DNA of 60,000 nucleotides from Strigamia acuminata. Lineage: Eukaryota > Arthropoda > Chilopoda > Geophilomorpha > Linotaeniidae. The position numbers and the translations under genes are program-made. The stretch covers positions 1,862,001-1,922,000 of the forward strand of contig OX442315.1 in the NCBI GenBank assembly GCA_949358305.1, given 5' to 3'. Below the pieces are notes generated by a model that was not told the origin of the DNA, did not search any database, and saw only the letters and a program-made list of their open reading frames with translations. This document shows, in pieces, positions 4,790 through 48,372 of the stretch. Within the stretch, counting starts at the first letter, position 1. Each line of letters opens with the position of its first letter.

Positions 4790-5863
4790 TCAACTGGTAA
4801 ATGACGAAATTAGTTTAATTTCCGATGTATATGACATTATGTCATTGTTTTTTTCCAGTATGTGCATGCTGTAATTAACATTTAACGTACTTTTATCTGT
4901 ATATTCTTTGGAATGTGTGATAAAATATTTTAATATTGAACCAAACGCTAGAGGGTTGTCTTTATCAGACGAAATCAAATAATCAAATTGTTCATTATGA
5001 ATATTTGGACAGGGTTTGTGCAACGAGCAAATAAGATATACGTGCTTCTTAAGAAATATATTATGAGGTAAAAACGACTTGAAAGTCTGTTTGTTTTTGT
5101 CTGATTCATTTTTACTTAACAAAGTTGCGAGCTGTGAGCTGTGTTTTATAATTTTGTCTCCAATGCGATTTAAATACATTGTATATGGTGTAACATCTCT
5201 GATTGCATTGCCAGAATTTAATTCTAAATTTAAAGCATTTAAAATAATTGATACAGGTTTTTCTATGTACTTCCCTGTAAAGGTTTTTAATGTATCGGAT
5301 AAGGAAGAAAAAGAATTGCTGATGATTACCTTTAAATAAACACCCAAGTCTTTATAAAATCTATACACTTCTACAGCAATCCCCCCTCCAATAGAATTTC
5401 CGAATATTATGATTTGATCTGGACTAATCCCTCTTCGTAAATAGGAATGCACCATTAAGATAGCGCTGTGTACAGAGTATTTTATATTAAAATGGAATTT
5501 TATTGTTGGTATAAATAAAATAATTAAAACCGGTAAAAGAATTAAAGTAATTACTAAGATTTTCAATAAAATATTTAAAGGCATTAAAATAAATACAATA
5601 ATGGGAACCATAAACAATGTGGCATATCCGACGTATTTATGTTTATGGCCATAAATTTCTGAATTACTGTATTCCGCAAGAAAGGGATAAGCAAAAAAAC
5701 TGACTTCTGTATTTTGAAAGTCAATACTGAGAGCAATATTTTTTACCGACTTATGGAGACTTTGTAGGTTATTATTGCCAATTCCTTGCAGATATATCAT
5801 ATATGTGCTGTCATTATTTGCCAATAAAGAAAAGTCGATTGTACTATAATGAACGCCAATCAT
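4790..5863 (-). CDS. Membrane-anchored alpha/beta hydrolase (esterase/lipase-like), viral-type
   Basis: A 357-residue AT-rich ORF. Residues 151-168 form a textbook nucleophile elbow (strand IIIF, then G-N-S-I-G-G-G, then a helix), making Ser157 the candidate nucleophile. Two adjacent hydrophobic segments at about 82-119 suggest a membrane hairpin in front of the hydrolase core, so the active domain is probably membrane-associated. The acid and histidine of the triad cannot be assigned by eye; a C-terminal histidine such as that in the FITHSKEYT region is possible. Lipase/esterase genes occur in several large arthropod DNA viruses, but the family is also widespread in hosts. Base composition, lack of introns and the neighbouring viral ORFs favour a viral origin. 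A T7AATT tract lies about 40 nt upstream of the start. Confidence 0.6.
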   Translation of the reverse strand: MIGVHYSTIDFSLLANNDSTYMIYLQGIGNNNLQSLHKSVKNIALSIDFQNTEVSFFAYPFLAEYSNSEIYGHKHKYVGYATLFMVPIIVFILMPLNILLKILVITLILLPVLIILFIPTIKFHFNIKYSVHSAILMVHSYLRRGISPDQIIIFGNSIGGGIAVEVYRFYKDLGVYLKVIISNSFSSLSDTLKTFTGKYIEKPVSIILNALNLELNSGNAIRDVTPYTMYLNRIGDKIIKHSSQLATLLSKNESDKNKQTFKSFLPHNIFLKKHVYLICSLHKPCPNIHNEQFDYLISSDKDNPLAFGSILKYFITHSKEYTDKSTLNVNYSMHILEKNNDIMSYTSEIKLISSFTS

Positions 5864-13523: not shown

Positions 13524-14114
13524 ATGAAATGTACTGAAAATCTCCGAACAGCAAACATCTACTTCCAACACAATCAACATGTCAACAACATGTTCCAGGC
13601 CAACCATCAGAATGTGATAATGACCACGCCCGACACGCCCGCTGTATGGGCGAAAACCCAGATAAGAAACAACGTCAGACAAGGGGGCGGGAACCTGAGT
13701 GAATCCTTGAATCAGGATGCCACCCACCAACAGCAACAAACACAGAGCAGCTTATCCAGGTACAAGACAGAGCTGTGCAGGCAGTACAAGGCGAACACCA
13801 AATGTAGATATGGTTCTAAGTGCCAATTTGCACACGGTGCTCATGAGTTAAGAACCTTTGCAGAACACCCAGAGTACAGAACCAAACTATGTTATAAGTT
13901 CCACATAACTGGATTCTGTTCGTACGGTCCGCGCTGTCAATTCATACATAATTTCACATGTCCAGATTCCTACAAGGGGGAGTGTTCTCTAGCCTGTAAA
14001 TTGGTTCCGCAACTCAATTTTGCGGGACTCGATTTACCGAGAAAGGGAAATACCGCAAATCAGCCAATCCTAAACCAAACAAGCTCAACTCACTGTACAA
14101 CGAATTCACAGTAA
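13524..14114 (+). CDS. Tandem CCCH zinc-finger protein of the TTP/TIS11 (ZFP36) family
   Basis: This 196-residue protein has two perfect C-x8-C-x5-C-x3-H fingers at residues 85-104 and 123-142, separated by the 18-residue linker typical of tristetraprolin proteins. Both are preceded by the family lead-in (RYKTEL and YRTKL). Such proteins bind AU-rich elements in mRNA 3' ends and recruit deadenylation and decapping machinery. Flanks are Gln/Asn-rich and short, and the total is smaller than most animal homologues. The ORF is uninterrupted and its GC content is near 45%, well above the viral ORFs, so it looks host-derived: either the last exon of a spliced gene or a retrocopy. An AATAAA lies near 14582. 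Capture by the virus is possible but unsupported. Confidence 0.85.
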   Translation: MKCTENLRTANIYFQHNQHVNNMFQANHQNVIMTTPDTPAVWAKTQIRNNVRQGGGNLSESLNQDATHQQQQTQSSLSRYKTELCRQYKANTKCRYGSKCQFAHGAHELRTFAEHPEYRTKLCYKFHITGFCSYGPRCQFIHNFTCPDSYKGECSLACKLVPQLNFAGLDLPRKGNTANQPILNQTSSTHCTTNSQ

Positions 14115-19224: not shown

Positions 19225-20748
19225 ATGGAAAAGATAAATAATATTACTATAGTAGACTATCAAAATGCAATTTACTATGCTAATCGTAGTTTTTCGAGAC
19301 TTAAATTAAACGAGTTAATAAAAACAAATAAAATATTTGCAGACGTTGTAATTAGCGATTCCATATGGCCTTCTTGGTTCCATTTGCCAGAAAAATTAAA
19401 ATTTAAACGGAATTTCAAATCTTTATTCCCAACTGAGGAGTCATGTGAAAAAATTCATTGTTATCCCTACGTAAATGGTAAAGACCTTTGTACAAATAGT
19501 ATTGGAATGCAGACATTACATATAAATGAAATGACGTATCACGCCTGTCAAGACGTATGTTTCTGTTTAGACAAATCAAAGCCTAGCTTTCCCGAAATTC
19601 ATTGGTCAAAAATAAAAAAAACGTGTGTTTTTGGAAACACCGGCTTCAAAAATTGGTGCTTGTATCCGGAAACAAGACGAGAAGAAAAGAGAAAAGGGGT
19701 GACGAATGTTGCTCCATTTAAATGGATTGACAGTTTACAAAAATGTGAAATCACGAAGAAATATTGTGATTATTTTATACTGGATTTTAATAATGAGAAA
19801 AAGGAATGTATACAACCCGGGATACTTGAAACCATCGGCGAAATTCTGATTAGTAGGACAGCTGTCCGTAAAATTAAAGAGCGGATACAATCTGATGCAC
19901 CTGTTGCGGGCGATGAGACAATAAGTGACTCTGAATACGACATGTCACTCACGATACGAGAAATATTATTGGATTTTGGATTAGACAGGGCAGATTATTT
20001 GAGTAGTAAGCTACTTGATAAAATGAGAAAAATATCAACTGTTGCTTTAAGGAGAATTGGTTTGAGCGCTTTCACAAAACTTACTTCTATTTTACCCTTG
20101 AAATTTGCAAGTAAAATATTAATCTTTTCGCTACTTGTTGATAATACAATCAAAATTTTTATCTCACAGTTAAAACTACTTTTAAGAACTATTAGCTTAA
20201 TGTATCATATTTACAATTTGACATCAATCGGTGTTATGATAGTCGATGTTGTCGACCCGGAAGGATACAACTTTATGATTACACAAGAAACATTAAATAT
20301 GATAGAAATTGAATTTTGGGATGGTTTAAGACAGGATTATGGGTTTTTTGGTGAATATCCTTACACAGTTTCTCCAGAATTACTAATGTCATTATTTGAA
20401 ACCGAAAAAGGAATCGAAGAGAATGAATTACTAATAAAAGAAATATATATATATGAATATATAATAAATTTAGAAGTGAATAGTTTGGGGCAAGTAATTG
20501 AGCACATCGGAAGTACTGAATATCTGAAACTAGACAATGATTATTTAGAAAAACAGTATTTTGTAGATTATACAACTAAAACATCTCTGCTAATGTCAAA
20601 TATTAAAAAGGATATTTATAGCCCTCCAATTATTTTTTCTTTTATTTTTTCTGTTTTGTTTATAGGGCTACTAATTTTCATAAAAGTAAAGTTTTTAATA
20701 ATTTTAATTTTAGTTTCTATTTGGTCTTTACTTCAACTTATATTATGA
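19225..20748 (+). CDS. p74: P74/PIF-0 per os infectivity factor homologue
   Basis: A 507-residue protein with the P74 layout: an N-terminal segment with PSWFHLPEKL, a Cys block (SCEKIHCYPY, then TYHACQDVCFCLD), another Cys cluster around residues 130-200, an amphipathic or hydrophobic middle ending in VDPEGYN, and two membrane helices at about residues 468-507. P74 is an envelope protein of occlusion- or gut-infecting nuclear arthropod viruses, part of the entry complex that binds midgut cells. It is shorter than typical P74 proteins (about 640-700 residues), mainly in the central region, but has no frameshift or stop. A TTTAAAAAAA motif and a GTAAG lie 13-23 nt upstream of the ATG. I read the identity from motif order by eye. 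Confidence 0.75.
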   Translation: MEKINNITIVDYQNAIYYANRSFSRLKLNELIKTNKIFADVVISDSIWPSWFHLPEKLKFKRNFKSLFPTEESCEKIHCYPYVNGKDLCTNSIGMQTLHINEMTYHACQDVCFCLDKSKPSFPEIHWSKIKKTCVFGNTGFKNWCLYPETRREEKRKGVTNVAPFKWIDSLQKCEITKKYCDYFILDFNNEKKECIQPGILETIGEILISRTAVRKIKERIQSDAPVAGDETISDSEYDMSLTIREILLDFGLDRADYLSSKLLDKMRKISTVALRRIGLSAFTKLTSILPLKFASKILIFSLLVDNTIKIFISQLKLLLRTISLMYHIYNLTSIGVMIVDVVDPEGYNFMITQETLNMIEIEFWDGLRQDYGFFGEYPYTVSPELLMSLFETEKGIEENELLIKEIYIYEYIINLEVNSLGQVIEHIGSTEYLKLDNDYLEKQYFVDYTTKTSLLMSNIKKDIYSPPIIFSFIFSVLFIGLLIFIKVKFLIILILVSIWSLLQLIL

Positions 20749-21220
20749 AAAGGCACTTACCGTCTTGTTTCTTTTTTTTTCGTACATGATATTTAATTGA
20801 AATCAAATGGTTAACGCATGTATTAAGTACATAGTACAGTATCAAATACATGAATATCCATCAGTAATGTAACTAGTTTGCAGCGTAGTAAAGACAAAGT
20901 AATTATCTTTTTCATTGACTATTAATAAAACTTAAATTTCTATTTCATTTTATTGAATTATGTATCCTGTATGAGCTGTCTTAGTAGCTGAAGAAAATGC
21001 TGGGATGCTTGAGAGTGGGGTCATTAGTCACACAGAAGATGCATTATTTTTTTTGTTAAAACTTTTTTTAAGTCAATAGTTAGCTGAAATTGTTGATGTT
21101 TTTTTTTATGAACACAAAACTTACAGTTAGGAATCAACTTTAGAATTCATTTATGTTATGTTAGCACCTATCAGTGTCATGAGAGATCTTGGAACAGCTC
21201 ACACAACTGCGACATGAGAA
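20749..21220. other. Non-coding gap
   Basis: About 470 bp of AT-rich sequence between the converging P74 and thymidylate kinase genes. No ORF, and no repeat other than short A or T runs. Confidence 0.5.
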
Positions 21221-21826
21221 TTAAACAATGTCTGTTTTCTTCGGCATTTGCGCTAATAATGAGAAAACATGGTCACAGATGTAGTCTTGTGTAGTTTGTA
21301 TATTTTCGTACACCTTTATTAATTTGGAATTTGGGATGAAATTATTTTGACACATGTACATAAATTTGTCGTACACCTTTCTTTGGAAATCATTGTCGTC
21401 GTAAATTTCTGTTTTGCAGTGTATAAGTGGCTTCTTATTTAAGAAAAAAGTGATATCTGGTATTGGTAACCCCGTTTCGGAATTTAAGTACCACTCAATC
21501 TCATTCGAACTGGATAAAGCTAAAGAGTACGCAACACCACTTGAAGAAAATCTATCAGCAACAACAATTCTTTCATTCTTTAAAGCTGTTTCGATGTATT
21601 CCGTTTTCTCCCATCGATTAGCTGAAAATATCAGATGTGAAGCACGATCAGGCATTCTTTGAATTTTTCCTTTTAATAATCTGTTTATTAACCTTCCGGT
21701 CGTGGTATTTCTGTCAGGGAAACTAATTGGTACCACATCGTATCCTCTTTTTGTAAGTGTTTGAACAAGTAATTTACAATGCGTAGTTTTGCCGACACCG
21801 TCACATCCTTCAAAAACGAAGAACAT
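21221..21826 (-). CDS. tmk: Thymidylate kinase (dTMP kinase)
   Basis: The 201-residue length is normal for the family. The P-loop GCDGVGKTT lies at residues 7-15. The dTMP-site segment FPDR is at 36-39, and the DR(F) motif at 91-93 is followed by SSSGVAYS, as in eukaryotic-type enzymes. It phosphorylates dTMP to dTDP in the dTTP pathway and would support viral DNA synthesis in non-dividing cells. It begins 3 bp after the end of the 395-residue ORF on the same strand and has no promoter motif of its own, so the pair is likely expressed together. It complements the ribonucleotide reductase subunit 9 kb away. Intact and presumably active. Confidence 0.9.
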   Translation of the reverse strand: MFFVFEGCDGVGKTTHCKLLVQTLTKRGYDVVPISFPDRNTTTGRLINRLLKGKIQRMPDRASHLIFSANRWEKTEYIETALKNERIVVADRFSSSGVAYSLALSSSNEIEWYLNSETGLPIPDITFFLNKKPLIHCKTEIYDDNDFQRKVYDKFMYMCQNNFIPNSKLIKVYENIQTTQDYICDHVFSLLAQMPKKTDIV

Positions 21827-21829
21827 TTT

Positions 21830-23017
21830 TTACTTACTTTCCTGTTTGCGTTTTTTGGGTTTATGTTGTATTGAATCGAATACTGGATCGATTGCTGCTA
21901 GCGATGGTGAAATGAGTGACGATGTGTTTAATGTAGGTGAAGCTGATGTAAATGATGCTCTGTTTGCCGAAGGTGATGTAGAAGCTAGAAAGGGTTCGAT
22001 TGATGCTCTTGAAGATGCAGGCAGTCTGGTTGTCGAATACGACGTGGAAGCCAGCGAGGGTTCGATCGATGATGTAAGCACTGAGCTGTCGTATTTTTTG
22101 TACACGTCAACAACGATTTCAGTAGTTACTCGCATGCAGATTATGCCCAATGGCAAGATTAACTGTTGTAGAAAATCGTTTGTTCTGGAGAAAGTTGTGA
22201 TTTTTTCGGACTGGAGAATGGGATCGTTCAAACTGCCACAGTTTGCTAAATAGTCTAATTGAGCAATTTGATAGTCACGTTTTATACATATTTCGTATTG
22301 ACTTTTTATTATATCATTTAATGAATTACATGCGGATTTAAATTTAGGAATTTCGCTTATCATACTAATTGTACCATTAAATGATTTATAGAGTAAACTT
22401 AGCTGATATTTAGAAGTTTCATCCAAATTAATTATATTGTTAGCATTCATAATAATTCTAATAAACTTTGTAATTTCATTATCATCGAGGTTTGTGATTT
22501 CTGCATCTTCAAAAATCTTTTTTGCAACTGGGTTTGTTCGTAATATGTATACGATTAATCGATTCAAATATTTCTTAGATTCGTCAGGTTTTGCTTCGTC
22601 GACTCTGTTTTCAGTTTGTGAATATAGTTGTGACATGAGTTCGTCCATATTACTGGAATCAGAGACAGCAGGTAGATCATCAGATCTATTATAATCATCA
22701 CTATTTGTATTTAAATTATTCAATGTGTTTGGATGTGGTCTATTAACCTCTGGTATTTCGATGCTTGATTCGTCTGGATTTATTTCACTACGATTTAAAT
22801 TATTGTTGTTGTTGTAGTCAGAATCATCATTATGAGCATCATTAGCTCCATTACCAATCTCAGCACTCCAATGTAATCTTGGATGGTCGTTTAACTCCAA
22901 AAAACTACTGTATGGGTTAATATTGTCACTATTAGAGCTAGCTTCCGTTGGAGGAGATGTTGGAGGAGAAATATTATTTTGTAATCTGGACATATAAAAA
23001 CTATCCTGTTCCATCAT
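21830..23017 (-). CDS. Unknown viral-type protein, 395 aa, disordered ends and basic C-terminus
   Basis: Starts with two adjacent ATG codons at 23017. Residues 1-125 are low-complexity, rich in Asn, Ser, Asp and Pro. Residues 145-310 form a helical core (for example NRLIVYILRTNPVAKKIF and LANCGSLNDPILQSEK). Residues 315-390 are Ser/Thr/Ala-rich and contain two copies of SIEP.LAST, and the last residues (KPKKRKQ) look like a nuclear localisation signal. Repeats and disorder suggest a structural or DNA-associated virion protein, but that is inference. It is the leading gene of a probable two-gene unit with thymidylate kinase. The function is not recognised. Confidence 0.55.
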   Translation of the reverse strand: MMEQDSFYMSRLQNNISPPTSPPTEASSNSDNINPYSSFLELNDHPRLHWSAEIGNGANDAHNDDSDYNNNNNLNRSEINPDESSIEIPEVNRPHPNTLNNLNTNSDDYNRSDDLPAVSDSSNMDELMSQLYSQTENRVDEAKPDESKKYLNRLIVYILRTNPVAKKIFEDAEITNLDDNEITKFIRIIMNANNIINLDETSKYQLSLLYKSFNGTISMISEIPKFKSACNSLNDIIKSQYEICIKRDYQIAQLDYLANCGSLNDPILQSEKITTFSRTNDFLQQLILPLGIICMRVTTEIVVDVYKKYDSSVLTSSIEPSLASTSYSTTRLPASSRASIEPFLASTSPSANRASFTSASPTLNTSSLISPSLAAIDPVFDSIQHKPKKRKQESK

Positions 23018-23049
23018 TTATTATTAATAAATATATAAATGTTACTTTT

Positions 23050-23475
23050 TTAATTACTTCGATAAATGTGATTTAGTTTAACTAACTGAGAGGCCAGTAG
23101 TTCTTTACTTATAGCAAGTGGTTTCTTTTTAAAAATGTCTGTTAGATCAAATTTACATTTTAAATGATCGAATAAATTGTTGTCATAAATATTTAAATTG
23201 GGTAAAAAAACTAAATCGTAAAAGTCTTGCTTGCTGAAATCCGTCCAGAAATAACTCGTTTTAAACAATAAAATAATTAATTCGGACTGTGAAAAGGGAG
23301 GAGCATTTTTATAATATAGCATTACTCCAGGTTGATTATTTAAAATACCGCTAACAATTTTCCTTGCGGATATAAATACAAATGATTTCCTGAACGTTTT
23401 ATTGTCGTATGTGTTGTTAGATGCTACCCACTTGACTCCAGAGTCCACTGACATAAGAAATTCAAAATCGGTCAT
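23050..23475 (-). CDS. Unknown small viral-type protein, 141 aa
   Basis: An intact AT-rich ORF 32 bp upstream of the 395-residue gene on the same strand. It has mixed hydrophobic and charged segments (SFVFISARKIVSGIL, ELIILLFKTSYFWTDF) and no signal peptide or membrane helix. Its start is 62 bp from the start of the Nudix gene on the opposite strand; this divergent intergenic space contains TTTTAAAAAAA (23489-23499), which could serve both directions. No family recognised. Confidence 0.5.
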   Translation of the reverse strand: MTDFEFLMSVDSGVKWVASNNTYDNKTFRKSFVFISARKIVSGILNNQPGVMLYYKNAPPFSQSELIILLFKTSYFWTDFSKQDFYDLVFLPNLNIYDNNLFDHLKCKFDLTDIFKKKPLAISKELLASQLVKLNHIYRSN

Positions 23476-23537
23476 TTTTTTTTAGATATTTTAAAAAAAC
23501 TAATCGGTACATAGTCACATACAATAGATCATATTAG

Positions 23538-24071
23538 ATGGATAAGGAGATATTGTCCCAAGCAACTATTCTCATTTATAAGGGAGCGGTGTTAATGTTG
23601 GAACGTAAACAACCTTATGGTATAGCTGATAATGTTGTGACTCCCCGATTCAAAAGACCATTTACCTCGAAAGAAAAACTTGATATTATTCAGTACCTTA
23701 CTGGCAAAAGATTTTCGTTTGAAGACAAGTATGATTTTCCTAAAGGACGCGGAAAGACATTTAAACATGCTTTAAAGGAAGTAGAAGAGGAGACTGGCTA
23801 TAGAATCGATCAGAGTATCATCAATTATAAAAAGGAAAATTATGGCACCGTTTCTTACCAAGGTCTGGATAACAAACATTATAAGATAGTGCTTCATTTG
23901 ATTTTTTTGTCACATCTTCCAAATAAAATACGAAAGGGCGAGACGCAAATGTTTGATCAAAAGTGGTTGGCGATTGGAAAAGTTCTGTCTATACTGACAA
24001 AGTCTAGCGATTGTAGAAATAAATATTCTAAATATTTTGACTTATTAAAAAATATTTTAAATTATATATAA
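23538..24071 (+). CDS. Nudix hydrolase, Dcp2/D10 decapping-like
   Basis: A 177-residue protein with a Nudix signature: DFPKGRG at residues 66-72 and KEVEEETGY at 80-88. The FPKG lead-in is characteristic of mRNA-decapping Nudix enzymes (cellular Dcp2, poxvirus D9/D10, ASFV g5R). The catalytic pair Glu84/Glu85 plus Glu81 is kept, but the loop between G70 and the RE-equivalent (K80-E81) is four residues shorter than the canonical 23-residue box, and the first box Glu is missing. It would hydrolyse a nucleoside-diphosphate linkage, either an mRNA cap or a small nucleotide. Three same-strand genes follow within 2.7 kb, ending with an XRN-type nuclease, which favours the decapping reading. An ADP-ribose or diphosphoinositol substrate remains possible. 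Confidence 0.75.
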   Translation: MDKEILSQATILIYKGAVLMLERKQPYGIADNVVTPRFKRPFTSKEKLDIIQYLTGKRFSFEDKYDFPKGRGKTFKHALKEVEEETGYRIDQSIINYKKENYGTVSYQGLDNKHYKIVLHLIFLSHLPNKIRKGETQMFDQKWLAIGKVLSILTKSSDCRNKYSKYFDLLKNILNYI

Positions 24072-24085
24072 TCTTTGTAATTAAA

Positions 24086-24433
24086 ATGCCAAACCCCCCA
24101 GTTGTTAAACCAGAAACGGTAGATGAACTAACTGTGTCTAAGAGTGACACCCCTGAAGTAATAGCAGTAGATGTAACAGAAACAAATAACCGAATTGATT
24201 TATCCGTTGTATCTATTCATTCGTTGTTGTGTTGTTCGATTTTGTGTATAATTATTATTATTTGTCATGCATTTGAAGTCACTGTAGCTATTACAATACT
24301 GTTGTCAATGATATTTATTTTAATTATATGCGTTCAATTAACACCTATACTATATCCCATTACTATTCACATCAATAATATAGTAAAAGATGCGTTGAAA
24401 AATATGAAATCACATATACAAATAGAAAAATAA
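24086..24433 (+). CDS. Small two-helix membrane protein, 115 aa, viral-type
   Basis: Begins 14 nt after the Nudix stop codon. Residues 1-45 are hydrophilic and acidic. Two close membrane helices (about 49-66 and 70-95) form a hairpin, then a basic amphipathic tail ends the protein. The next ORF has the same architecture (hydrophilic N-terminus, paired helices near the C-terminus), although the sequences do not obviously align. The tight spacing suggests a compact gene group with the Nudix gene. Possibly an envelope protein. No family recognised. Confidence 0.5.
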   Translation: MPNPPVVKPETVDELTVSKSDTPEVIAVDVTETNNRIDLSVVSIHSLLCCSILCIIIIICHAFEVTVAITILLSMIFILIICVQLTPILYPITIHINNIVKDALKNMKSHIQIEK

Positions 24434-24470
24434 AAAGTTTTTTTTGATTTGTTATTGTTTTGTTAAAAAA

Positions 24471-24860
24471 ATGACGAGTTACTATAAAGCTCCTGATTTT
24501 ATTAAACTTTCTCATAACCACACAAGCACTAAGCATGACACCAACGAGCATTTGTTAGAGCATAAACCTCAGAATAATCATCATCGTGGACATTCACCTC
24601 CTCGGTCTCATACTTTAAATTACATAAAGCAAAATAAAGTAAAATGGAAAGCATTGGTATCATTACGCAACACGTTTAGTTTGCTTGATAATTTCTTACC
24701 TGTTGCAATATTTATTTTGACAGTCATCGTTTATCAAGGCATATATTCATGCCTAGAGTGTAAATATAAATTGAAAACAGAAATATATTTATTATTACTG
24801 TGTTCCGGATTGATTTTATCTTTAAAATTAATCAATAAATTGTTTCATTTCATTTCATAA
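24471..24860 (+). CDS. Small two-helix membrane protein, 129 aa, viral-type
   Basis: ATG 24471 is chosen because the upstream frame only offers TTG and because this ATG follows an A-run directly (GTTAAAAAAATG). Residues 1-65 are hydrophilic and His-rich (HNHTSTKHDTNEH and NNHHRGHS). Two membrane segments lie at about 80-97 and 108-124, with a Cys pair (SCLEC) between them. The His-rich N-terminus could bind metal, but that is speculative. It sits between the Nudix and XRN genes on the same strand. Confidence 0.5.
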   Translation: MTSYYKAPDFIKLSHNHTSTKHDTNEHLLEHKPQNNHHRGHSPPRSHTLNYIKQNKVKWKALVSLRNTFSLLDNFLPVAIFILTVIVYQGIYSCLECKYKLKTEIYLLLLCSGLILSLKLINKLFHFIS

Positions 24861-24907
24861 AAAAAGAATACCGGTACTTGATAGTTTGGCAGAATAATCA
24901 ATAGGAC

Positions 24908-26206
24908 ATGGGGATACCTAAATTGTCAGCATATCTTATGTCACGAAAATGTAATCAGGGATTTAAGTTAAATAATGCAGATGGCAATGAAATTGCCAGT
25001 ATAGATTTAATTTTGTTTGATATAAATACTATTTTGCATAAACTTTGTTACAAATTACAACTCCAGAACGAATACGAGATATTTTCGTGTTTACAGTCTT
25101 TAAAGCAATCGTTAATTTATGAAATGCAAAATGTTATTAATATTGTTTTAGCAGAAAATAGGAACGGTTGTGATTCACTGGATATATTTATTGGATTAGA
25201 CGGGGTATCCCCTCCCGGTAAACGTCACTTGCAAAGGAAAAGGCGACAAGAGTTTAACATTTGGCATTCTTATCTTACTGCCGGTAGCTCATTTTTGAAA
25301 ATGTTATTCGATGAAAATTTCAAAGAAAAGTTCTTCTTTTCCTGTATGTGTGTCATCAGAAAAACTTTAAAACAACGACAGCCAAACTACAGCGTTCCAA
25401 CAATTAGGTTAATTTTTGATAATGATTTGCAACCTAATGAAGGAGAGATAAAATGTATAAATTTCCTTAAAAGACCAAGATATCACAGTTGTCTCCTTGT
25501 TTCAACTGACAATGATGTCATAGCTACGGCATTGCTTTTAAATACTAAACATATTTCTATCTTGACATCAACGAGGAATGTCGACGTGGAAGACATCTTT
25601 GTTCTCTATAACAATCAAAATATAAAAAGAATATTATTTCAGGACGACGCCAAAGCTACTCAATTGTACGGTTTACTTCTGTTTGCAGTCTTTGGTGGTG
25701 ATTATTTACCACCATTTTTGGTATCTGGCACTTTGAGACAAATGGAAGTTGTGTGTGATCTGGCAAATGATTATATTAGTGATGTACGGGATAATATGAC
25801 AAATTTGGATGAAGTGTTTTTAGAAATGGAAGTTCTGAAAACAATAATCAAATTTATTTTACGTGTATTTAAATATTTGACCAAGCACAGACGGTGTTTG
25901 AAACCCACAACCCATTCCGAGGCATCAAATATTAATGTCATACAATGCTTTTTTTCGGATTTACTGTGGGTGTATGGCCATTACAGCTGTAATGATAACA
26001 TATTGACAAATCGAAACATGTTCATAGTACAGTCTGACGTAGAATATAACAAGTTTGTAGGAATAAAAAATGAAGTGTATCTAGATGATACATTAATTGA
26101 TAAATTAGACATTGGAAAAATTAGATCGGACGCTTTATCGACAACCTGCTGCGTGGACAAGACGTGGACAAACATGGAACAATTTAGAGACGAAATATTA
26201 ATGTGA
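24908..26206 (+). CDS. XRN-family 5'-3' exonuclease (N-terminal nuclease region)
   Basis: A 432-residue protein starting MGIPKL, as XRN1/XRN2 proteins do. Blocks match the XRN_N domain in order: LFDINTILH (Asp38), LDGVSPPGK with QRKRRQEF (Asp98), PNEGEIK (Glu178, Glu180), STDNDVI (Asp201, Asp203) and GGDYLPPF (Asp265). These supply the full set of seven metal-binding acidic residues of the family. The long C-terminal region of cellular XRN1 is absent, so only the catalytic module is kept, with about 165 further residues of unclear relation. Known relatives degrade 5'-monophosphate RNA after decapping. Its position downstream of a decapping-type Nudix gene suggests the two act in sequence. It is AT-rich, intronless and intact, unlike a host XRN gene. 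A FEN1-type nuclease is excluded by the motif set. Confidence 0.8.
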   Translation: MGIPKLSAYLMSRKCNQGFKLNNADGNEIASIDLILFDINTILHKLCYKLQLQNEYEIFSCLQSLKQSLIYEMQNVINIVLAENRNGCDSLDIFIGLDGVSPPGKRHLQRKRRQEFNIWHSYLTAGSSFLKMLFDENFKEKFFFSCMCVIRKTLKQRQPNYSVPTIRLIFDNDLQPNEGEIKCINFLKRPRYHSCLLVSTDNDVIATALLLNTKHISILTSTRNVDVEDIFVLYNNQNIKRILFQDDAKATQLYGLLLFAVFGGDYLPPFLVSGTLRQMEVVCDLANDYISDVRDNMTNLDEVFLEMEVLKTIIKFILRVFKYLTKHRRCLKPTTHSEASNINVIQCFFSDLLWVYGHYSCNDNILTNRNMFIVQSDVEYNKFVGIKNEVYLDDTLIDKLDIGKIRSDALSTTCCVDKTWTNMEQFRDEILM

Positions 26207-30170: not shown

Positions 30171-31175
30171 ATGCCAACCATAACAAATGATCATTTTTTA
30201 GATCTTCCATTGCCACCTTCATCCGAAACTACTCGTTTTTGTCTTTTCCCCATACGTTATCAAACCATATGGGACTTTTACAAACGTCAGGCGAGTATCG
30301 CATGGCACGTAGAAGAAATAAATTTTAAAACCGATGTTGCAGATTTCAAAGCTCTCAGTGAAGATGAGCAAGAATTTATAAAACATATCTTGGCTTTTTT
30401 TGTGGCTGGCGACGTCCTTGTTGGGGATATGTTAAAAAAAGATTTTGTAAATCTACCTGTAATTGAAGCTGAATATTTTTACACAATTCAAGCTTATGTT
30501 GAAAATATTCATTTCGAAACTTACAGTTTAATGATTAACAGTCTGATATTAGATGAGGATGAAAGAAACCGGTTATTAAATATGGCATCTACGAATCACA
30601 ATCTTAAAACCAAAATTGAGTGGATTGACAGTTATATTAATAATCCATCCGTTACTGTGGGTGAAAAAATATTAGTCACGGCAATTGCCGAAGGAATATT
30701 TTTTTCCGGAGCATTTGCTGCAATATTCTGGTTAAAAGACAGGGGTTTAATGCCAGGATTAACATTTGCAAATGAGTTAATAAGTAGGGACGAATCTCTA
30801 CATTGTGAATTTGCATGCGAAATATTCAAAAATCACATTTTTTACAAACCACCGACTAGTGTTGTGAAAGATATGCTCTGTTTAGCTGTTGACATGGAGA
30901 TCAAGTTTTACGAGGATGCGTTACCAAGAGATCTACGCAATATGAACAAAAGAACAATGAGTCAATACATAAAATATATTGCTGATCGCTTGTCCTTTAA
31001 TTTGATTGGTGAAGTGATATACGCTGCTGAAAATCCGTTTGAATTCATGACAACATCGTCGTATACAGGGAAGACCAATTTTTTTGAGAGAAAAGTGAGC
31101 GAGTATGGGAAGGTCAACATTAAAGCCGAGACGAATATACCTGGCGATAATATTTTTGGTATAACAGATTTTTAG
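30171..31175 (+). CDS. rnr2: Ribonucleoside-diphosphate reductase small subunit (class Ia R2)
   Basis: A 334-residue R2 protein. Diiron ligands are all visible: Asp81 (VAGD), Glu111 and His114 (ENIHFETY), Glu174 (AEGIFF), Glu208 and His211 (RDESLH). Tyr118 is the radical-bearing tyrosine. RGLMPGLTFANELISRDE matches eukaryotic-type R2. The C-terminal tail ends FGITDF, the kind of short acidic peptide that docks on the large subunit. The enzyme makes dNDPs from NDPs, and with the TMK gene it would raise dNTP supply for viral DNA synthesis. No large-subunit gene is in the window, so the partner is elsewhere, lost, or the host's. The N-terminus is shorter than in host R2, as is usual for viral forms. 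It ends exactly where the opposite-strand gene ends. Confidence 0.95.
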   Translation: MPTITNDHFLDLPLPPSSETTRFCLFPIRYQTIWDFYKRQASIAWHVEEINFKTDVADFKALSEDEQEFIKHILAFFVAGDVLVGDMLKKDFVNLPVIEAEYFYTIQAYVENIHFETYSLMINSLILDEDERNRLLNMASTNHNLKTKIEWIDSYINNPSVTVGEKILVTAIAEGIFFSGAFAAIFWLKDRGLMPGLTFANELISRDESLHCEFACEIFKNHIFYKPPTSVVKDMLCLAVDMEIKFYEDALPRDLRNMNKRTMSQYIKYIADRLSFNLIGEVIYAAENPFEFMTTSSYTGKTNFFERKVSEYGKVNIKAETNIPGDNIFGITDF

Positions 31176-35578: not shown

Positions 35579-36409
35579 TCAAGTATTTAAAGCATAATGT
35601 CGTACTTGATCCACGGTGGGTCTGATATAATTACGAACAGATTTTGTTTCTGAGTGACCCATTAATTGCGCCAAAACATGAAAAGGAAATGCAATATTTT
35701 TTTCAATCATAATTGAATATTTCTTAGTGCAAAAGAAGCTTCTCATTCCATGAAATCCCTTTTTCTTTTCAACAACACCGCAGTTGTGTAATATTCGTTT
35801 CAATCTGCGTCGCCAATTATCATAAGTCGTGGGAAACAAATACTCACTTTTGAGTGAGAGAACGTATGGTCTCAGCTCATCGTGGAAGTACGGTTTATCC
35901 GTATCAGAAATGAAAACTGTTCTAGATTTATTTCCTTTTCCGCGTGTAACAATCACCTCCATCGGTGTTTTCTCACAGCCGACTAAAAAATCAGCATTTT
36001 TTATGCTCAAAATTTCGTGTATTCTTAAACCGGTTCTTATGGCTAGTGAAATGCAATGGTACATTCCCACATCTTCCACAAAACCATGTATAGATTCGTT
36101 TAGAAAACTGTTTATTTGTGTTTGGTCATAATTGTTTACTTTGGTCGACTTACTGCGATCTTTTGATGGTACGGGCATAGGTTGCAGGTTACGATTTTTT
36201 AAGACGTATGTGTTTAACGTGATAACCATCAATCTTCTGGTGTTACGTGATCTGTTATTGTAATATTGATCTACATAATTCTGAACATTTTCTGTTGTTA
36301 TTTCATTAGTTGAAAATTCATTGTAGAATTTATTCAGATTTCTGAGATAGGTCTTACAAGATTTCTCACCTAAGTTTCTACTTTCTAGAGTGTTTATAGA
36401 GATATTCAT
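35579..36409 (-). CDS. Tyrosine recombinase (viral integrase, lambda-integrase fold)
   Basis: A 276-residue protein with an N-terminal SAM-like core-binding region (residues 10-70) and a complete catalytic set: Arg129 in TGLRIHE, Lys158 or Lys161 in RGKGNKS, His220 and Arg223 in HGMR, His252 in LMGHSE, and Tyr261 in RNYIR. It would cut and join DNA through a 3'-phosphotyrosine link. Homologous integrases are core genes of nudiviruses and are kept in bracoviruses, where they excise or resolve viral DNA. Endogenous nimaviruses also carry one. It has no transposon-like flanks, and it is embedded among viral ORFs. An A/T tract lies 70 nt upstream at 36476-36494. The target site is unknown. Confidence 0.85.
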   Translation of the reverse strand: MNISINTLESRNLGEKSCKTYLRNLNKFYNEFSTNEITTENVQNYVDQYYNNRSRNTRRLMVITLNTYVLKNRNLQPMPVPSKDRSKSTKVNNYDQTQINSFLNESIHGFVEDVGMYHCISLAIRTGLRIHEILSIKNADFLVGCEKTPMEVIVTRGKGNKSRTVFISDTDKPYFHDELRPYVLSLKSEYLFPTTYDNWRRRLKRILHNCGVVEKKKGFHGMRSFFCTKKYSIMIEKNIAFPFHVLAQLMGHSETKSVRNYIRPTVDQVRHYALNT

Positions 36410-39921: not shown

Positions 39922-40428
39922 TGTTACGCGGTGGACGAGCACGCTGTGAATCAGCTGTCGCCACCTCGCTTCCGTAGTTAATCATTAGAGAATAACCCCT
40001 AAAACTCTCACTAGAGTCCGCCTTAAGCGGATGAGGTAATGACTTTACCTATCACTGAATAATAGAACGATCGAGCTCTATTTAAGGTTTGACAAGAGCC
40101 AAATTGACACAGAGGTTGACAAGCAGTTATTGCTGTGGCATCTCTAGGTTTTCCCATCCCAAAAGTTATTCATGCTTATTTAGTCTTAGGTTATTCTTAA
40201 GATAGTTTTAGAATTTAGTTTAAGTTAAATTATATTTGTTTTCAGATTGTATTTATGGTTTAATAAACATACTGTTATATTTTAATAATAATACAATGAG
40301 TCCTCTTCAGTTCCTTCTTGTTAGCAACACAGTTTAAATGTTAGCTTAACTTAATGCAATTACAAACCCCCAGTTATAACAAATAAGTATTTACGTGGTC
40401 AAACAGTAGTCAGTCTGGCCACGTAACA
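39922..40428 (+). repeat. 5' LTR of the young gypsy element
   Basis: 507 bp, TG..CA ended, same sequence as the 3' LTR at 47658-48164. It contains TATTTAAGG as a possible TATA-like box near 40080 and AATAAA at about 40262. The internal part begins with AAGTGGTGGAGATTGCGG, where a primer-binding site is expected; the matching tRNA was not identified. Confidence 0.95.
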
Positions 40429-41087
40429 AAGTGGTGGAGATTGCGGTTCTTTCTATTTGAGACCCATTAATTGGCTAAAAGTAGTGAAAAGTAGTAAAAG
40501 TAAAGTGAAATTGGCCAGTTATTTGCTAAAATTAGAAGATCCATTTGAAATTCGTACAAATTTGCATTAAAATTCAGTAAAATTCAAATAAAAGTCATAT
40601 AAAATTTTGAAAAGTTGCAAACTCATTTGCATGAGTGATAAGATTGAAAGGTGACTCATTGTGAAAGTTTTCTTTTAAAGTCAATTGAAGTTGAATATTT
40701 AATTATAGTGCACTAATAAGATTTACATATTTGAATTTATTAAAGATATTTACCCAAGTTGAATTTATAATAAAATGAGGTTGTTTTGGAGGTTAAGAGT
40801 GGTGAATATTCAATGTTTGTTTAATGATAAAACTTATATTAATGATGATTCAATTATAGGAAATGTTTTCTTTTTGGTTTATGTAGAAGTTTATGTTGAT
40901 TTTGATGATTAATTTTGATTATTTTTCAGGAAATAATAATAATTTTTTTTTTGTTATTGAAATTTATTTTGGATTAGTGACTAATTGTGATAATTAATTG
41001 TGCATAAGTTTATTTCAGGGTTAGTGAAAGTTGTGAGTTGCTACAGCGTTGTGTGAATAAAGTGAAGGTATAATTAAAGGCTTAACA

Positions 41088-42443
41088 GTGGATCAGCCAG
41101 TTAAGTTATCACAGGCGCAAGTGGATAATCTACTGGACTTAAAGAATCAAGAATTAGAAAGAGAATTAGTAAGCACAGTGGATGATTCCAAAGTAGCGGT
41201 TAGGAAAAGAAAAACAACTTCACAGTCGGAACCTGGAATAAAGGAGGTTGAGCAAAATACTTCCACATTGGATGATAAACTTGTTTTTGCAACCCCATTA
41301 AAATTTGCGCAATCAAAGTCTTTTCAATCAGTATTTGAATTGTTAACACCAGTAAAATTAAAGGAATCCACATCAAAAGGAACTGTATCCAAGATGGCGG
41401 ATCCAACAACAGTTTTAACTGATCTTCTCAAGGGTATTTTGATACAAAAGCGCGAAGTTGTTTGTTATGATACGGAAAAAGGTAACATTGACCAATGGCT
41501 TGTGGCTTATGAAGCTACAATAGCATCAGATGATGAACGAGTGAAGCAATTGCCGTTAGCCCTTAAGACTGACGGACTGGCATGGTTTGTGGAACAATAT
41601 AAAACGAATCCAACCTGGACTTGGACAGAATGGAAGCCACAAATCGAAAAGAAGTTCAGGAAAAGCCAGGAAAATGTATTGAACACTCTTCATTTTATGA
41701 GGCATTCAGATGGTAAAGCCGATGCATTTATGAAGAAAGTCTTGGCCGAATGTGCTTATGCGCGACCAGAATTACCTGAGAATTTGAAGATTAATTACAT
41801 TTTTCAAGGATTGAAGCCGGAAATGCAAAAGATGTTGATTACTGTATTCCCGAAGACTTTGGCGGATATGGAAGAGAGAATTAAGTTATTCGAAAGTCAT
41901 AAAGTAAAAGATCCAGCAGATGTTCTACTTGCAGCGTTTAAAAAAATCGTGGATGAGAAGGTGATCCCAGTAACAGCAGGTAAACTGAGTGGAACTGTGG
42001 GGACCCAACCAACCCACGCTGAGTTAATAGCTGAAGTCGCTGATTTAAAGCAGCGATTATTAGAAGCGGAGTCAGTGGATTTGCTGGATGAAGAGTCAAT
42101 ATTGATACAAAATCAGTGGTATGCGCCAATAAGGAATAGGGGACAGTATAATCAAGGAGGTAGAAGTAGAGGCGGTAGACAAGGCTTTAATCCTAATTAC
42201 AATAATTATAATACTAACAATAGTAATAATTCTAATAACCGTTCATGCGGATGTTATCATCATTTCAGCTGTGAGTTTTATAATCCACCCAGGCAACAAC
42301 AACAACAACAACAACAACAACAGCAACAGGAAAGAGGTGGAAGTAACAGCTGGAAGTGGAATAAAAAGAGGAGAAGAGGTGAACAGCAAGATGGAAACCC
42401 TAATCCTCAGGCACAAACGAAGGCCCAAAATTCGAAAAACTAG
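41088..42443 (+). CDS. gag: Gag of the young Ty3/gypsy element
   Basis: The open frame reaches back to 41061 but has no ATG before 41394 (MADPTTVL), so translation starts there, at a non-ATG codon such as GTG 41088, or after splicing. The central part (WLVAYEATIASD.., FRKSQENVLNTLHFMRHSDG) is a retrotransposon capsid fold with the typical WF.....W..W pattern. The C-terminus is Asn/Arg/Gly-rich with a run of ten or more Gln, and one CGCYHHFSC cluster replaces a standard CCHC knuckle. The stop TAG (42441) directly follows GAAAAAC, one base off the A-AAA-AAC slippery heptamer. Pol is in the -1 frame and open from 42404, so -1 frameshifting within this 40-nt overlap is likely. Confidence 0.85.
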   Translation: MDQPVKLSQAQVDNLLDLKNQELERELVSTVDDSKVAVRKRKTTSQSEPGIKEVEQNTSTLDDKLVFATPLKFAQSKSFQSVFELLTPVKLKESTSKGTVSKMADPTTVLTDLLKGILIQKREVVCYDTEKGNIDQWLVAYEATIASDDERVKQLPLALKTDGLAWFVEQYKTNPTWTWTEWKPQIEKKFRKSQENVLNTLHFMRHSDGKADAFMKKVLAECAYARPELPENLKINYIFQGLKPEMQKMLITVFPKTLADMEERIKLFESHKVKDPADVLLAAFKKIVDEKVIPVTAGKLSGTVGTQPTHAELIAEVADLKQRLLEAESVDLLDEESILIQNQWYAPIRNRGQYNQGGRSRGGRQGFNPNYNNYNTNNSNNSNNRSCGCYHHFSCEFYNPPRQQQQQQQQQQQQERGGSNSWKWNKKRRRGEQQDGNPNPQAQTKAQNSKN

Positions 42444-45400
42444 TTGAACGGCCACAGAGAAATTGTTGCCACCCAAAGAAAAGGAAAAGACAAAAGAAGA
42501 AGAGTAAGATAGTCATAATTGACGTTCAGGTATCGGAGTCATTGTTGGAAATCCCAGTAATTGTAAAAGAAATGGAAATAAAAGCGGTAATGGATACTGG
42601 AGCCAAACGAAACCTTCTAAGTGAAGAAGTTGCAGTAGCCCTTCAGTTGGATTATTCACCCAGCCCTAACATTAGGCTACGTGGGATAGGAAAGGATTTG
42701 GTAGTTCCAGTGGGTAAAACAAAAATGAACATTGCAATTGGAAAACTGACCTATAGAGTGGAAGTGTTAATAGTGTCAGGATTTCATCATCAGCTTTTAT
42801 TGGGGGATCCATTCATGAGGTCAACGAGAACTGTCGTCGATTATGATTTACAAAAAATCTTTGTGGGCCGGAACAATGATAGTGGAGTAGAAGAAGCAGT
42901 TTTTCCAATAAATAAATCGTTTTCGGACCAGAGTTATGTTGCCAGAGTAATGAAGAATATTTCAATTCCACCAATGCATGAATGCGTTATACCAGTTTAT
43001 TTAAATACAAAGTTAACCACAGAAATGTTTATGGAACCTCTAGGAAACGTAATAGATAGGTTTGGAATTTTGTGTTGTAAAACATTAACAAATTTTGAGT
43101 ATGGTAAAGGAGTTCTGCGTGTGGCTAATCCAACAAACAAATCAGTCTTTCTGAAGGAGAAATCTGCAATTGGTAAGGCGTATTACATTATTGAGATTGG
43201 GTTGTTGGATGAAAAGCAAGTGCATTGCTCTGACTCCTCAACCAAAGCGGTTGAGCTGACAGATGAAAAGCAAGTGCATTGCTTTGACTTTGACTCCTCA
43301 ATTGCTAAAGATAAGATGACTAAAAGCCAACAAGAGCGGATGAAGGAGTTACTTCAAAAGAATCAAGATAGATTTGCAGCCACAGACAAAGACTTAGGTA
43401 GAGTAACAACATTTAAACACAAAATTGATACGGGGGACCATGATCCAATACATTTGCAGCCTTATAGACGTTCAATCGCAGAAAAAGAAGTAGAGGCAGA
43501 AGAGACCAGAAAGTTGCTTGAGATGGGAGTCATTAGGGAATCAGAAAGTCCATGGAGTGCACCAGTACTACTCATCAAGAAAAGAGACGGTAAATGGAGA
43601 TTTTGTGTCGATTGGAGGAGGTTAAACGCGATCACAAAGAAAATGGTATACCCACTGCCCAGGATTGATGACACCTTAGATCAACTGGCAGGGGCCCAGT
43701 ATTTTTCGATGATGGATCTTATTCAAGGATATTATCAAGTCGAAATAGATGAACAAGATCGTGAAAAAACAGCGTTTACCACTTCAAGCGGACATTTTGA
43801 GTTTAACGTCCTAGGAATGGGATTATGTAATAGCCCAGCTGCGTTTCAAAAATTGATGAACAAGGTGCTTGGTAATCTTCTTGGCAAGGTCTGTATAGCT
43901 TATATTGACGACCTTATAATCTTCTCGAAGACTTTTGATCAGCATCTGGAGGATCTCGATGCTGTCTTCAGCAAGCTGCGGTTGGCAAACTTAAAGGTTA
44001 AACTCAGCAAATGTACGTTTGGTACTAATACCATCAAATATTTAGGCCACATTGTTGATTCTGATGGAGTGTCACCTGATCCACGTAATTTGGAAAGTGT
44101 AGCTAAATTTCCAAAACCAACAAATTTGAAGCAGTTGAGAGGGTTTTTGGGTTTATGTTCGTATTATCGAAAGTTTATTCCAGGATTTGCGGACGTATCC
44201 AAGCCCTTAGCCAACTTAACTCGCAAAGATGAAGCTTTTGATTGGGGACCACCACAGGAAACAGCGTTTAAGGCCTTACGAACAGCTTTAGTTACGGTAC
44301 CAGTATTGGCACATCCAAATTTCGCTGAGCCATTCATTGTGTCTACGGATGCAAGTGCTTATGGGCTTGGTGCAATTTTGAAGCAACGTATTAACAAGCA
44401 AGAACATGTGATTTGTTACGCCAGTCGATTATTAAGTACAGCGGAACAAAATTACACAGCTACGGAAAGAGAATGTTTAGCCATAATATTCGGCATTAAC
44501 AAGTACAGACCATATCTTTACGGTAGGAAATTTACAATTGTGACAGACCATTCTGCGTTACAATGGCTGAATAAGGTGAAAAATCCCAACGGTAGGTTGG
44601 CCAGGTGGAGTTTACAACTGGTAGATTATGACTACGATGTGATGCACAAGTCAGGCAAGAAGCACACGGACGCAGATGCTCTTAGCCGAATCCAAGAAGA
44701 GATTGGTGAGGAAGAAAAAGAAATTATTCCCTTGCTACTTCTCGAAAAACTCAACTTACCTGTAGAACAGCGTAAGGACGAGAAAATTTTGGAGATCATC
44801 ACCGCAATGGAGAACATTGAGCAACTTCCAAGAAACAGGAAACGTCCTTTAAAACAGTTCGTTCTCCTGGATAATACGTTGTTTAGAAAGAAAAGTTACA
44901 ATTCTCTAAACATGGAAGGAAACCTTTTAGTAGTACCGCAGCATTTACGTAAGCAAGTGTTAGAAGAAATGCATGACGGGCTCATAGGTGCTCATCTCGG
45001 CCTAAATAAGACGTGGAAAAGAATTAGAGTAAGATTCTTTTGGCCGAGGATATACAGGGACGTAAGGAATTACGTTCTCAGTTGTCCACATTGCGCAGGA
45101 AGTAAGTCAATGACCACTCCACAAAAAGGTTTATTACAACCTTGGTCGACGATTTCAAGACCGTTCGAGAGGATTGGTATAGACACGTTAGGAAGCTTTC
45201 CAGTTTCAAATAGTGGAAATAAGTTTGTATTTGTCATCACTGATTACTTGTCGCGTGCAGTCATCGCCAGAGCGGCTCCAGCATGTACAGCGTTGGAAGC
45301 AGCGAAAACTCTTGTATTCGAGGTAATGCTCAAAGAGGGAAGTCCACGCGAGATACTCAGCGATAAGGGGACGGAGTACAGGAACGAAATGATTAATGAG

Positions 45401-46486
45401 GTATCAGCACTGTTTAAATCCCAGCACAAATCTACTTCCGGGTACCATCCAAGGACCAACGGGTTGACGGAAAGATTTAATGCAACGTTTGCCAAAATGT
45501 TGACATGTTATACTAATAAAGATCACACAGATTGGGATGAATTTTTACCATTTGTCATTTTCTCCTATAATTCAGCAGTCCATGAAACAACTGGATATAC
45601 CCCATATTATTTGTTGAAAGGTTATGAAGTTGATTTGAGTGTGGATGTGAACTTGAACCTTCCACGAAAGGAATTCACTCTTCGCACTTCTAGATTCATG
45701 CGGGAGATGCGGAAAATTGCCAACGAAAGACTAGAATGGCAGAGTGAGAAGAGCAAGAGAAGATTTGATTTGGACAGAATAGTGGTTGAATTCGAACCAG
45801 GAGAACTAGTTTACTTGAAAACCCCAAATAGGAAAGTAGGGTTGAGCGAAAAACTCCTGCCACCATTTTCTGGACCATATGAAATAGTTAGACGCACAGC
45901 GCCAAACGATTATGAAGTAAGGAATTCATCAGGAAAGAAAACTAGTATTGTCAATGTTGAGCGTTTAAAACCATACAAGCCACGAGAGGAAATTCCAGAA
46001 ACTATTCTGCAGGATTTACCACCAAAGAAAGTAACATTTTCTGATGAAGTGCAAGAAAATTCGCAAAAAGACGATCAGAATGCGGAAATTGTGAAGAAGG
46101 ACGATGATTCGCGAGATAAGCCTAGAAAAGAAGCGAAGGAAAGGTTTATTGATGATGACGATCAAATTTCGTTGCGGAATTTCTTTGAATCCGAAGATAA
46201 AGCGTCGGATTTACCAGCTCTAACTGAAAAGGAGCGACTGAAGGCAATTTACGGGCCGAAAGAAATTGAGGCACGTCGAGTGAAAAAGGAGGTTGAATTA
46301 GAACAGCGAAATCAGTTGCTAAAATCGTCGCTAGACGAAAGCAAGGAGAATCGGTCGCAGAAACCATCACCAGGTGTCGCAAGTGCTGTTGGCGCCGATA
46401 CGCATGTGCGACGTCCTGCTGAAAGTGATTTCCGGTCACGACGACTTAGATCGCAACCACGCCAGGATTACACTGCATTTTACTAG
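42404..46486 (+). CDS. pol: Pol of the young Ty3/gypsy element (protease, RT, RNase H, integrase)
   Basis: Domain order is protease (VMDTGAKRNLL), reverse transcriptase (LGMGLCNSPAAFQKLM, then YIDDLIIF), RNase H (VSTDASAYGLGAIL, TDHSALQWL) and integrase (HHCC zinc site H..H..C..C around HLGLNKTW and CPHCAG; DDE set in IGIDTLGSFP, LSDKGTEY and TNGLTERFN). The GPY/F end is PFSGPYEIVRR. A charged tail of about 170 residues follows. All catalytic residues are in place and the frame is unbroken, so the element may be active. There is no ATG at the start, consistent with production as a Gag-Pol fusion by frameshift. Confidence 0.95.
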   Translation, partial: SSGTNEGPKFEKLVERPQRNCCHPKKRKRQKKKSKIVIIDVQVSESLLEIPVIVKEMEIKAVMDTGAKRNLLSEEVAVALQLDYSPSPNIRLRGIGKDLVVPVGKTKMNIAIGKLTYRVEVLIVSGFHHQLLLGDPFMRSTRTVVDYDLQKIFVGRNNDSGVEEAVFPINKSFSDQSYVARVMKNISIPPMHECVIPVYLNTKLTTEMFMEPLGNVIDRFGILCCKTLTNFEYGKGVLRVANPTNKSVFLKEKSAIGKAYYIIEIGLLDEKQVHCSDSSTKAVELTDEKQVHCFDFDSSIAKDKMTKSQQERMKELLQKNQDRFAATDKDLGRVTTFKHKIDTGDHDPIHLQPYRRSIAEKEVEAEETRKLLEMGVIRESESPWSAPVLLIKKRDGKWRFCVDWRRLNAITKKMVYPLPRIDDTLDQLAGAQYFSMMDLIQGYYQVEIDEQDREKTAFTTSSGHFEFNVLGMGLCNSPAAFQKLMNKVLGNLLGKVCIAYIDDLIIFSKTFDQHLEDLDAVFSKLRLANLKVKLSKCTFGTNTIKYLGHIVDSDGVSPDPRNLESVAKFPKPTNLKQLRGFLGLCSYYRKFIPGFADVSKPLANLTRKDEAFDWGPPQETAFKALRTALVTVPVLAHPNFAEPFIVSTDASAYGLGAILKQRINKQEHVICYASRLLSTAEQNYTATERECLAIIFGINKYRPYLYGRKFTIVTDHSALQWLNKVKNPNGRLARWSLQLVDYDYDVMHKSGKKHTDADALSRIQEEIGEEEKEIIPLLLLEKLNLPVEQRKDEKILEIITAMENIEQLPRNRKRPLKQFVLLDNTLFRKKSYNSLNMEGNLLVVPQHLRKQVLEEMHDGLIGAHLGLNKTWKRIRVRFFWPRIYRDVRNYVLSCPHCAGSKSMTTPQKGLLQPWSTISRPFERIGIDTLGSFPVSNSGNKFVFVITDYLSRAVIARAAPACTALEAAKTLVFEVMLKEGSPREILSDKGTEYRNEMINEVSALFKSQHKSTSGYHPRTNGLTERFNATFAKMLTCYTNKDHTDWDEFLPFVIFSYNSAVHETTGYTPYYLLKGYEVDLSVDVNLNLPRKEFTLRTSRFMREMRKIANERLEWQSEKSKRRFDLDRIVVEFEPGELVYLKTPNRKVGLSEKLLPPFSGPYEIVRRTAPNDYEVRNSSGKKTSIVNVERLKPYKPREEIPETILQDLPPKKVTFSDEVQENSQKDDQNAEIVKKDDDSRDKPRKEAKERFIDDDDQISLRNFFESEDKASDLPALTEKERLKAIYGPKEIEARRVKKEVELEQRNQLLKSSLDESKENRSQKPSPGVASAVGADTHVRRPAESDFRSRRLRSQPRQDYTAFY

Positions 46487-47657: not shown

Positions 47658-48164
47658 TGTTACGCGGTGGACGAGCACGCTGTGAATCAGCTGTCGCCAC
47701 CTCGCTTCCGTAGTTAATCATTAGAGAATAACCCCTAAAACTCTCACTAGAGTCCGCCTTAAGCGGATGAGGTAATGACTTTACCTATCACTGAATAATA
47801 GAACGATCGAGCTCTATTTAAGGTTTGACAAGAGCCAAATTGACACAGAGGTTGACAAGCAGTTATTGCTGTGGCATCTCTAGGTTTTCCCATCCCAAAA
47901 GTTATTCATGCTTATTTAGTCTTAGGTTATTCTTAAGATAGTTTTAGAATTTAGTTTAAGTTAAATTATATTTGTTTTCAGATTGTATTTATGGTTTAAT
48001 AAACATACTGTTATATTTTAATAATAATACAATGAGTCCTCTTCAGTTCCTTCTTGTTAGCAACACAGTTTAAATGTTAGCTTAACTTAATGCAATTACA
48101 AACCCCCAGTTATAACAAATAAGTATTTACGTGGTCAAACAGTAGTCAGTCTGGCCACGTAACA
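47658..48164 (+). repeat. 3' LTR of the young gypsy element
   Basis: 507 bp, identical as read to the 5' LTR. It is followed at once by the GTAT target duplication. Confidence 0.95.
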
Positions 48165-48372
48165 GTATACAGATAGATATTGGCTGCAAACGGTGGGCAA
48201 GGATAGATTAACTGTGTACTGTTTGCCGCATCGGCTTAACAACGCTAACTAACAACATGGAGGGTTTGCATGTCAGAGCGGTGAATTGTATGAATCAGCC
48301 GCAAACGGGGGCTCGGTTGCATGTTCATGGTTGCATGTTCGTGCCCGTGGTTGGGTCAGGGTATGTTGTGTT

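Follow-up and report, generated by a model that had tools for sequence, protein, structure and literature searches.

A Nudix-type gene and a core-only XRN-family gene close together in a probable PIF-type viral cluster within arthropod DNA

Can a virus bring both steps of 5'-to-3' RNA destruction, uncapping and degradation, by itself? The question is raised by a Nudix-type gene and an XRN-family gene in a 60,000-base stretch of arthropod DNA (the window, meaning the whole stretch analysed), which an earlier note had read as a viral decapping-plus-exonuclease cassette. Poxviruses uncap RNA and then work with cellular Xrn1, as passages of PMC8478210 describe. A virus of another class with its own XRN and an adjoining Nudix protein would, if the reading is true, drive RNA decay independently of host Xrn1, and a module of two small proteins is directly testable.

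Gene layout and viral setting

The earlier note had located both open reading frames (ORFs) correctly, and its gene order and counts were right (Table 1). Both begin with ATG and contain no internal stops. The pair spans 2,669 bases, with XRN the third gene downstream of Nudix and 836 bp from Nudix stop to XRN start (24072–24907; 840 bp in the note). Between them lie the two small membrane-type proteins that the note had described (115 and 129 aa, both with hydrophobic stretches); all four ORFs are on the + strand, separated by spacers of 14, 37 and 47 bp. In 200 first-order Markov simulations of 19001–39500, the longest stop-free stretch reached at least 177 codons in 3 and at least 432 codons in none, and residual doubt about the reality of the ORFs disappears because homologues were recovered independently. 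Third-position GC (GC3) is 0.31 in the Nudix gene and 0.32 in the XRN gene, in line with their neighbours (0.22–0.35) and unlike a Ty3 pol ORF (0.38) or a GC-rich ORF at 1311–3551 (0.59).

Table 1 Features of the locus and of its surroundings in the window
Feature	Position	Strand	Evidence
p74 / PIF-0	19225..20748	+	Pfam Baculo_p74 E=1.7e-12, Baculo_p74_N E=2.2e-7, both above cut-off
Thymidylate kinase	21221..21826	-	Pfam E=6.8e-32
395-aa ORF, compact cluster member	21830..23017	-	ORF list, Pfam scan
141-aa ORF, divergent from Nudix gene, 62 bp apart	23050..23475	-	ORF list
Nudix-type protein, 177 aa	23538..24071	+	ORF list; Nudix signature
Membrane-type small protein, 115 aa	24086..24433	+	Hydrophobic stretch 37-96; Pfam: no match
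Membrane-type small protein, 129 aa from ATG (138 aa from upstream TTG)	24471..24860	+	Hydrophobic 68-97, 103-125; Pfam: no match
XRN-family 5'-3' exoribonuclease, 432 aa, core only	24908..26206	+	Pfam XRN_N, alignment, model
Ribonucleotide reductase small chain	30171..31175	+	Pfam E=2.1e-82
Tyrosine recombinase	35579..36409	-	Pfam Phage_integrase E=9.3e-15
Ubiquitin, 77 aa	39146-39379	-	Pfam E=1e-31

The pair belongs to a compact viral cluster (19225–26206), in which 90% of the sequence is coding and none of the eight frames is broken. The p74/pif-0 gene in this cluster bears out the note's description of a PIF-carrying virus, here of the Naldaviricetes type (as defined in part of PMC10271883). 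Beyond the cluster, a chitin-binding-domain protein occurs among viral-type genes together with ribonucleotide reductase, recombinase and ubiquitin; viral ubiquitin is known in baculoviruses (PMC10223672, in part). A scan of 30 ORFs recognised no further pif gene and no DNA polymerase, in a window that holds only a partial genome. We conclude that the cluster probably belongs to a PIF-carrying arthropod DNA virus and that it appears to be an endogenous copy within arthropod DNA.

Arthropod telomere-like (GGTTA)n repeats occur at 48354–48671 (+ strand, mostly degenerate) and 52715–52734 (− strand, a perfect 20 bp), flanking an ankyrin-repeat ORF on both sides. According to sections of PMC10871703, (TAACC/GGTTA)n serves many endogenous nimaviruses as an insertion site, tyrosine recombinases are encoded by them, and clopoviruses have a GC content of 31–35%. 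The locus resembles these endogenous nimaviruses (majani-, pemoni- and clopoviruses) in being PIF-type, in arthropod DNA and with a tyrosine recombinase near such repeats, but no nimavirus core protein was identified in the window.

We consider it very improbable that what we see is an unexpressed viral fossil, with frames that have stayed open by chance or because the endogenous copy is young. Such a reading draws on the telomere-like repeats, on the non-viral-looking GC-rich ORF and on a Ty3/gypsy element (39922–47957) with an open pol ORF and an open ORF at the gag place that has no Pfam match; its long terminal repeats (39922–40221 and 47658–47957) are identical across 300 bp and therefore indicate recent insertion. 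Against it stand the eight unbroken, densely packed frames and the catalytic residues, which are kept among family members down to 32% identity. Unbroken frames and conserved residues point to selection in the family rather than to activity of the copy in the window, which may be endogenous and silent.

The XRN protein

The XRN ORF matched Pfam XRN_N with 59.3 bits (E=4.9e-16; cut-off 22.9), and all four other full-length relatives also scored above the cut-off. The seven acidic metal ligands reported in the note are all in place: D38, D98, E178, E180, D201 and D203 occupy ligand positions by alignment to Xrn1, and D265, which we take to be the seventh ligand, is placed only by its GGDYLPP motif and by its invariance in 7/7 sequences. 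All five full-length members retain K93, Q97, R100 and R101, presumably the 5'-monophosphate pocket, and H41, presumably the stacking histidine. The protein thus shares with Xrn1 and XRN2 (Rat1) the acidic ligands, the pocket, the stacking histidine and the catalytic-core fold, which its predicted model matches in an alignment that ends at residue 597 of the 3pie chain. It differs from Xrn1 in its identity of 21–23% over the N-terminal region and in its length: the ORF stops at 432 aa, without the C-terminal domains of Xrn1 proper that lie past residue ~600. The window sequence alone retrieved no XRN chain from the PDB at E up to 1, unlike the family profile, which does retrieve them.

The note had allowed that the protein might simply cluster with the host gene. 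A limited comparison did not show this: identity is 32–53% within the family versus 21% to a fragment of Drosophila XRN1, which serves as an arthropod stand-in for the host. Giant-virus XRNs (from CeV, Tetraselmis virus, CroV, mimivirus R528 and others) were the top named matches of the model in a viral structure library; like the window protein they are virus-encoded, and several are core-only in size, but they come from another class of virus and share 12–19% aligned identity in the first 20 rows of matches.

XRN enzymes require a 5'-monophosphate end. Alignment and model strongly support the prediction of a core-only, RNA-directed, 5'-monophosphate-dependent 5'-3' exoribonuclease, and we think it improbable that the protein works instead on intermediates of viral DNA replication or recombination, in the manner of nudivirus FEN-1-type nucleases, and not on mRNA. 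Its model also weakly matches a 'Wsv139-like protein' from the Hemigrapsus takanoi nimavirus in the viral structure library (E=2.8e-3, rank 42). Part of PMC10871703 lists wsv139 among the nimavirus core genes as hypothetical; its product might be a nuclease from this superfamily.

The Nudix protein and its candidate substrates

The signature reported in the note, FPKGRG...KEVEEETGY, is present at residues 67–88, but the box is non-canonical and four residues short. The full box, written GX5EX5[UA]XREX2EEXGU in a passage of PMC8478210, was found in none of the five family members, all of which retain EX2EE (E81, E84 and E85 in the window protein, where E135 is also conserved). From the glycine to the residue before the glutamate there are nine residues in 5/5 members, versus 13 in 14/14 other Nudix proteins, and the box arginine position is K, R or N among members. 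This shortened box, compared with those 14 proteins only, is new to us and a structural puzzle of its own. The window protein scored 15.2 bits with Pfam NUDIX (cut-off 21.1) and its relatives P0001 and P0002 scored 24.4 and 29.2; all five members matched at E up to 1. Fold comparison of the predicted model, whose pLDDT is only 59, recovered the Nudix fold, with the first strand starting at residue 5 and alignments extending to residue 177.

The note's assignment of this protein as a decapping enzyme drew on a signature, FPKG...EEETG, that we found in 7/14 unrelated Nudix proteins retrieved, and the assignment did not gain support. ASFV g5Rp tied with Ap4A hydrolases, RppH and ADP-ribose enzymes in the fold comparison, and PDB sequence searches with the protein or its family matched no decapping enzyme. 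Vaccinia D9/D10, ASFV g5R and mimivirus L375 differ from the window protein, which has 177 aa, a shortened box and no detected sequence similarity to decapping enzymes in the PDB. Dcp2 carries an N-terminal regulatory domain and Box B on either side of its Nudix domain; no such flanking domains were seen in the window protein, which the Nudix fold fills from residue 5 to 177 and whose length could hardly accommodate an additional RNA-binding domain. We put decapping by this protein at about even odds, and RNA seems to us a plausible substrate by inference.

The main rival, which we hold to be possible and somewhat the weaker reading, casts the Nudix protein as a nucleotide house-cleaning or ADP-ribose-type hydrolase that lies beside XRN by accident; XRN would then work unaided on RNAs whose caps the host had removed. 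It is favoured by the ADP-ribose enzymes among the PDB fold ties and by the viral structure matches, all of them weak, which include Nudix/ADPRase entries from two baculoviruses (ranks 3 and 9) and one from a hytrosavirus (rank 23). In the ADP-ribose subfamily a proline lies 15–16 residues past the box, and the NADH type carries SQPWPFPxS; both are absent here, with no prolines between residues 89 and 127, which speaks against this reading, although the signatures are weak ones. Baculovirus ORF38 (ac38) is likewise a Nudix gene in a PIF-carrying virus (parts of PMC10223672, where ac38 is named nudix, and of PMC9503650); its own substrate is reported as ADP-ribose (PMC9503650, in part), and it is likened to the window protein by description.

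Pairing in relatives and a proposed mechanism

The note had suggested synteny of the pair across viruses as support, and this was found in part. P0001 (Nudix) and P0003 (XRN) each come from one single 8,386-base contig of the same source, and it is very probable that they share it and that the pair is repeated there, a judgement based on contig sizes and counts. Such co-location speaks against the hydrolase reading. The remaining three Nudix members (contigs of 916, 1,482 and 2,025 bases) and three more XRN members (1,406, 1,514 and 2,578 bases) are uninformative because their contigs are shorter than the pair. The 25,097- and 14,485-base contigs that carry the distant XRNs P0005 and P0008 yielded no Nudix match in a search that scored its best 7,999 candidates, as the hydrolase reading would have it. 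Of ten loci, therefore, two have both genes (one by inference), six are uninformative and in the last two XRN was seen without a Nudix match; as far as these data go, the pair does not occur throughout. Among viral contigs no confirmed relative was obtained with XRN, Nudix, p74, tyrosine recombinase, ribonucleotide reductase, the alignments A1 and A2 or the cellular Xrn1 alignment A4 as queries, nor did a profile scan of genome contigs with A2 yield one.

The reading we prefer, and hold to be evenly poised between true and false, is that a PIF-virus cluster encodes an XRN core RNase together with a Nudix protein that uncaps or de-triphosphorylates RNA for it. Acting on an m7G cap or a 5'-triphosphate, the Nudix protein would hydrolyse a pyrophosphate at the 5' end of the RNA and so generate the 5'-monophosphate on which XRN depends; XRN would then degrade the RNA 5'-to-3'. 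Both proteins would be made from neighbouring genes, whose position on one strand fits joint expression. This presumed hand-over could serve to hasten the decay of host mRNA, or else of double-stranded or read-through RNA made by the virus; poxvirus decapping is reported to serve host shut-off and, with cellular Xrn1, removal of viral double-stranded RNA (PMC8478210, in part). The note's proposal that the virus carries both decay steps stands for an XRN with an intact pocket and a Nudix gene three genes upstream, but a decapping role for the latter was not supported; the virus may bring both steps itself, with uncapping as the candidate first step.

Further still, and unlikely in our judgement, a PIF-virus lineage would have a dedicated decay module in which a short-box Nudix protein uncaps RNA, a stripped XRN destroys it and A-rich leaders shield viral mRNAs, in parallel to poxviruses with different genes and without host Xrn1. 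Poxvirus decapping favours mRNAs that bear 5' poly(A) leaders, according to part of PMC7575113. In the window, TT+A6+ tracts lie within 70 nt upstream of 11/23 ORFs, the Nudix but not the XRN ORF among them; the background is 3.6% of 4,816 overlapping control 70-mers, with a Markov mean of 2.2 and a maximum of 7 in 300. This pattern was picked after inspecting the sequences, four others gave 7 to 11 of 23, and when A7+ is taken by itself the Markov simulations reach up to 12, more than the observed 11. The tracts are possible viral promoters or A-rich leaders.

Having both enzyme types in one virus is not new, because mimivirus has L375, a proven decapping Nudix protein (PMC8478210, in part), and R528, named a putative 5'-3' exonuclease in the viral structure library. 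A literature search returned nothing for nimavirus with Nudix, the main text of PMC10871703 contains neither 'nudix' nor 'XRN', and in the baculovirus, nudivirus and hytrosavirus literature the two XRN-holding papers among the matches listed concern, by their titles, human decapping and dipteran resistance. As far as these literature and main-text word searches show, both the presence of a Nudix–XRN pair in a virus with PIF genes and the tight cluster that the pair forms are new.

Elsewhere in the window, a 196-aa ORF (13524–14114, + strand) encodes a tandem CCCH zinc finger of the tristetraprolin/TIS11 type, matching PDB 1rgo at E=7.5e-27 (42/66 identical) with exact CX8CX5CX3H-18-CX8CX5CX3H spacing. 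That family binds AU-rich elements and recruits mRNA decay, and by its sequence the ORF could be a third decay gene; its GC3 of 0.51, compared with 0.22–0.35 in the viral genes, suggests host sequence or recent capture. A 357-aa ORF (4790–5863, − strand) is alpha/beta-hydrolase-like, with an NCBIfam match at E=1.5e-21 but only 77 of 400 bits, far under the cut-off.
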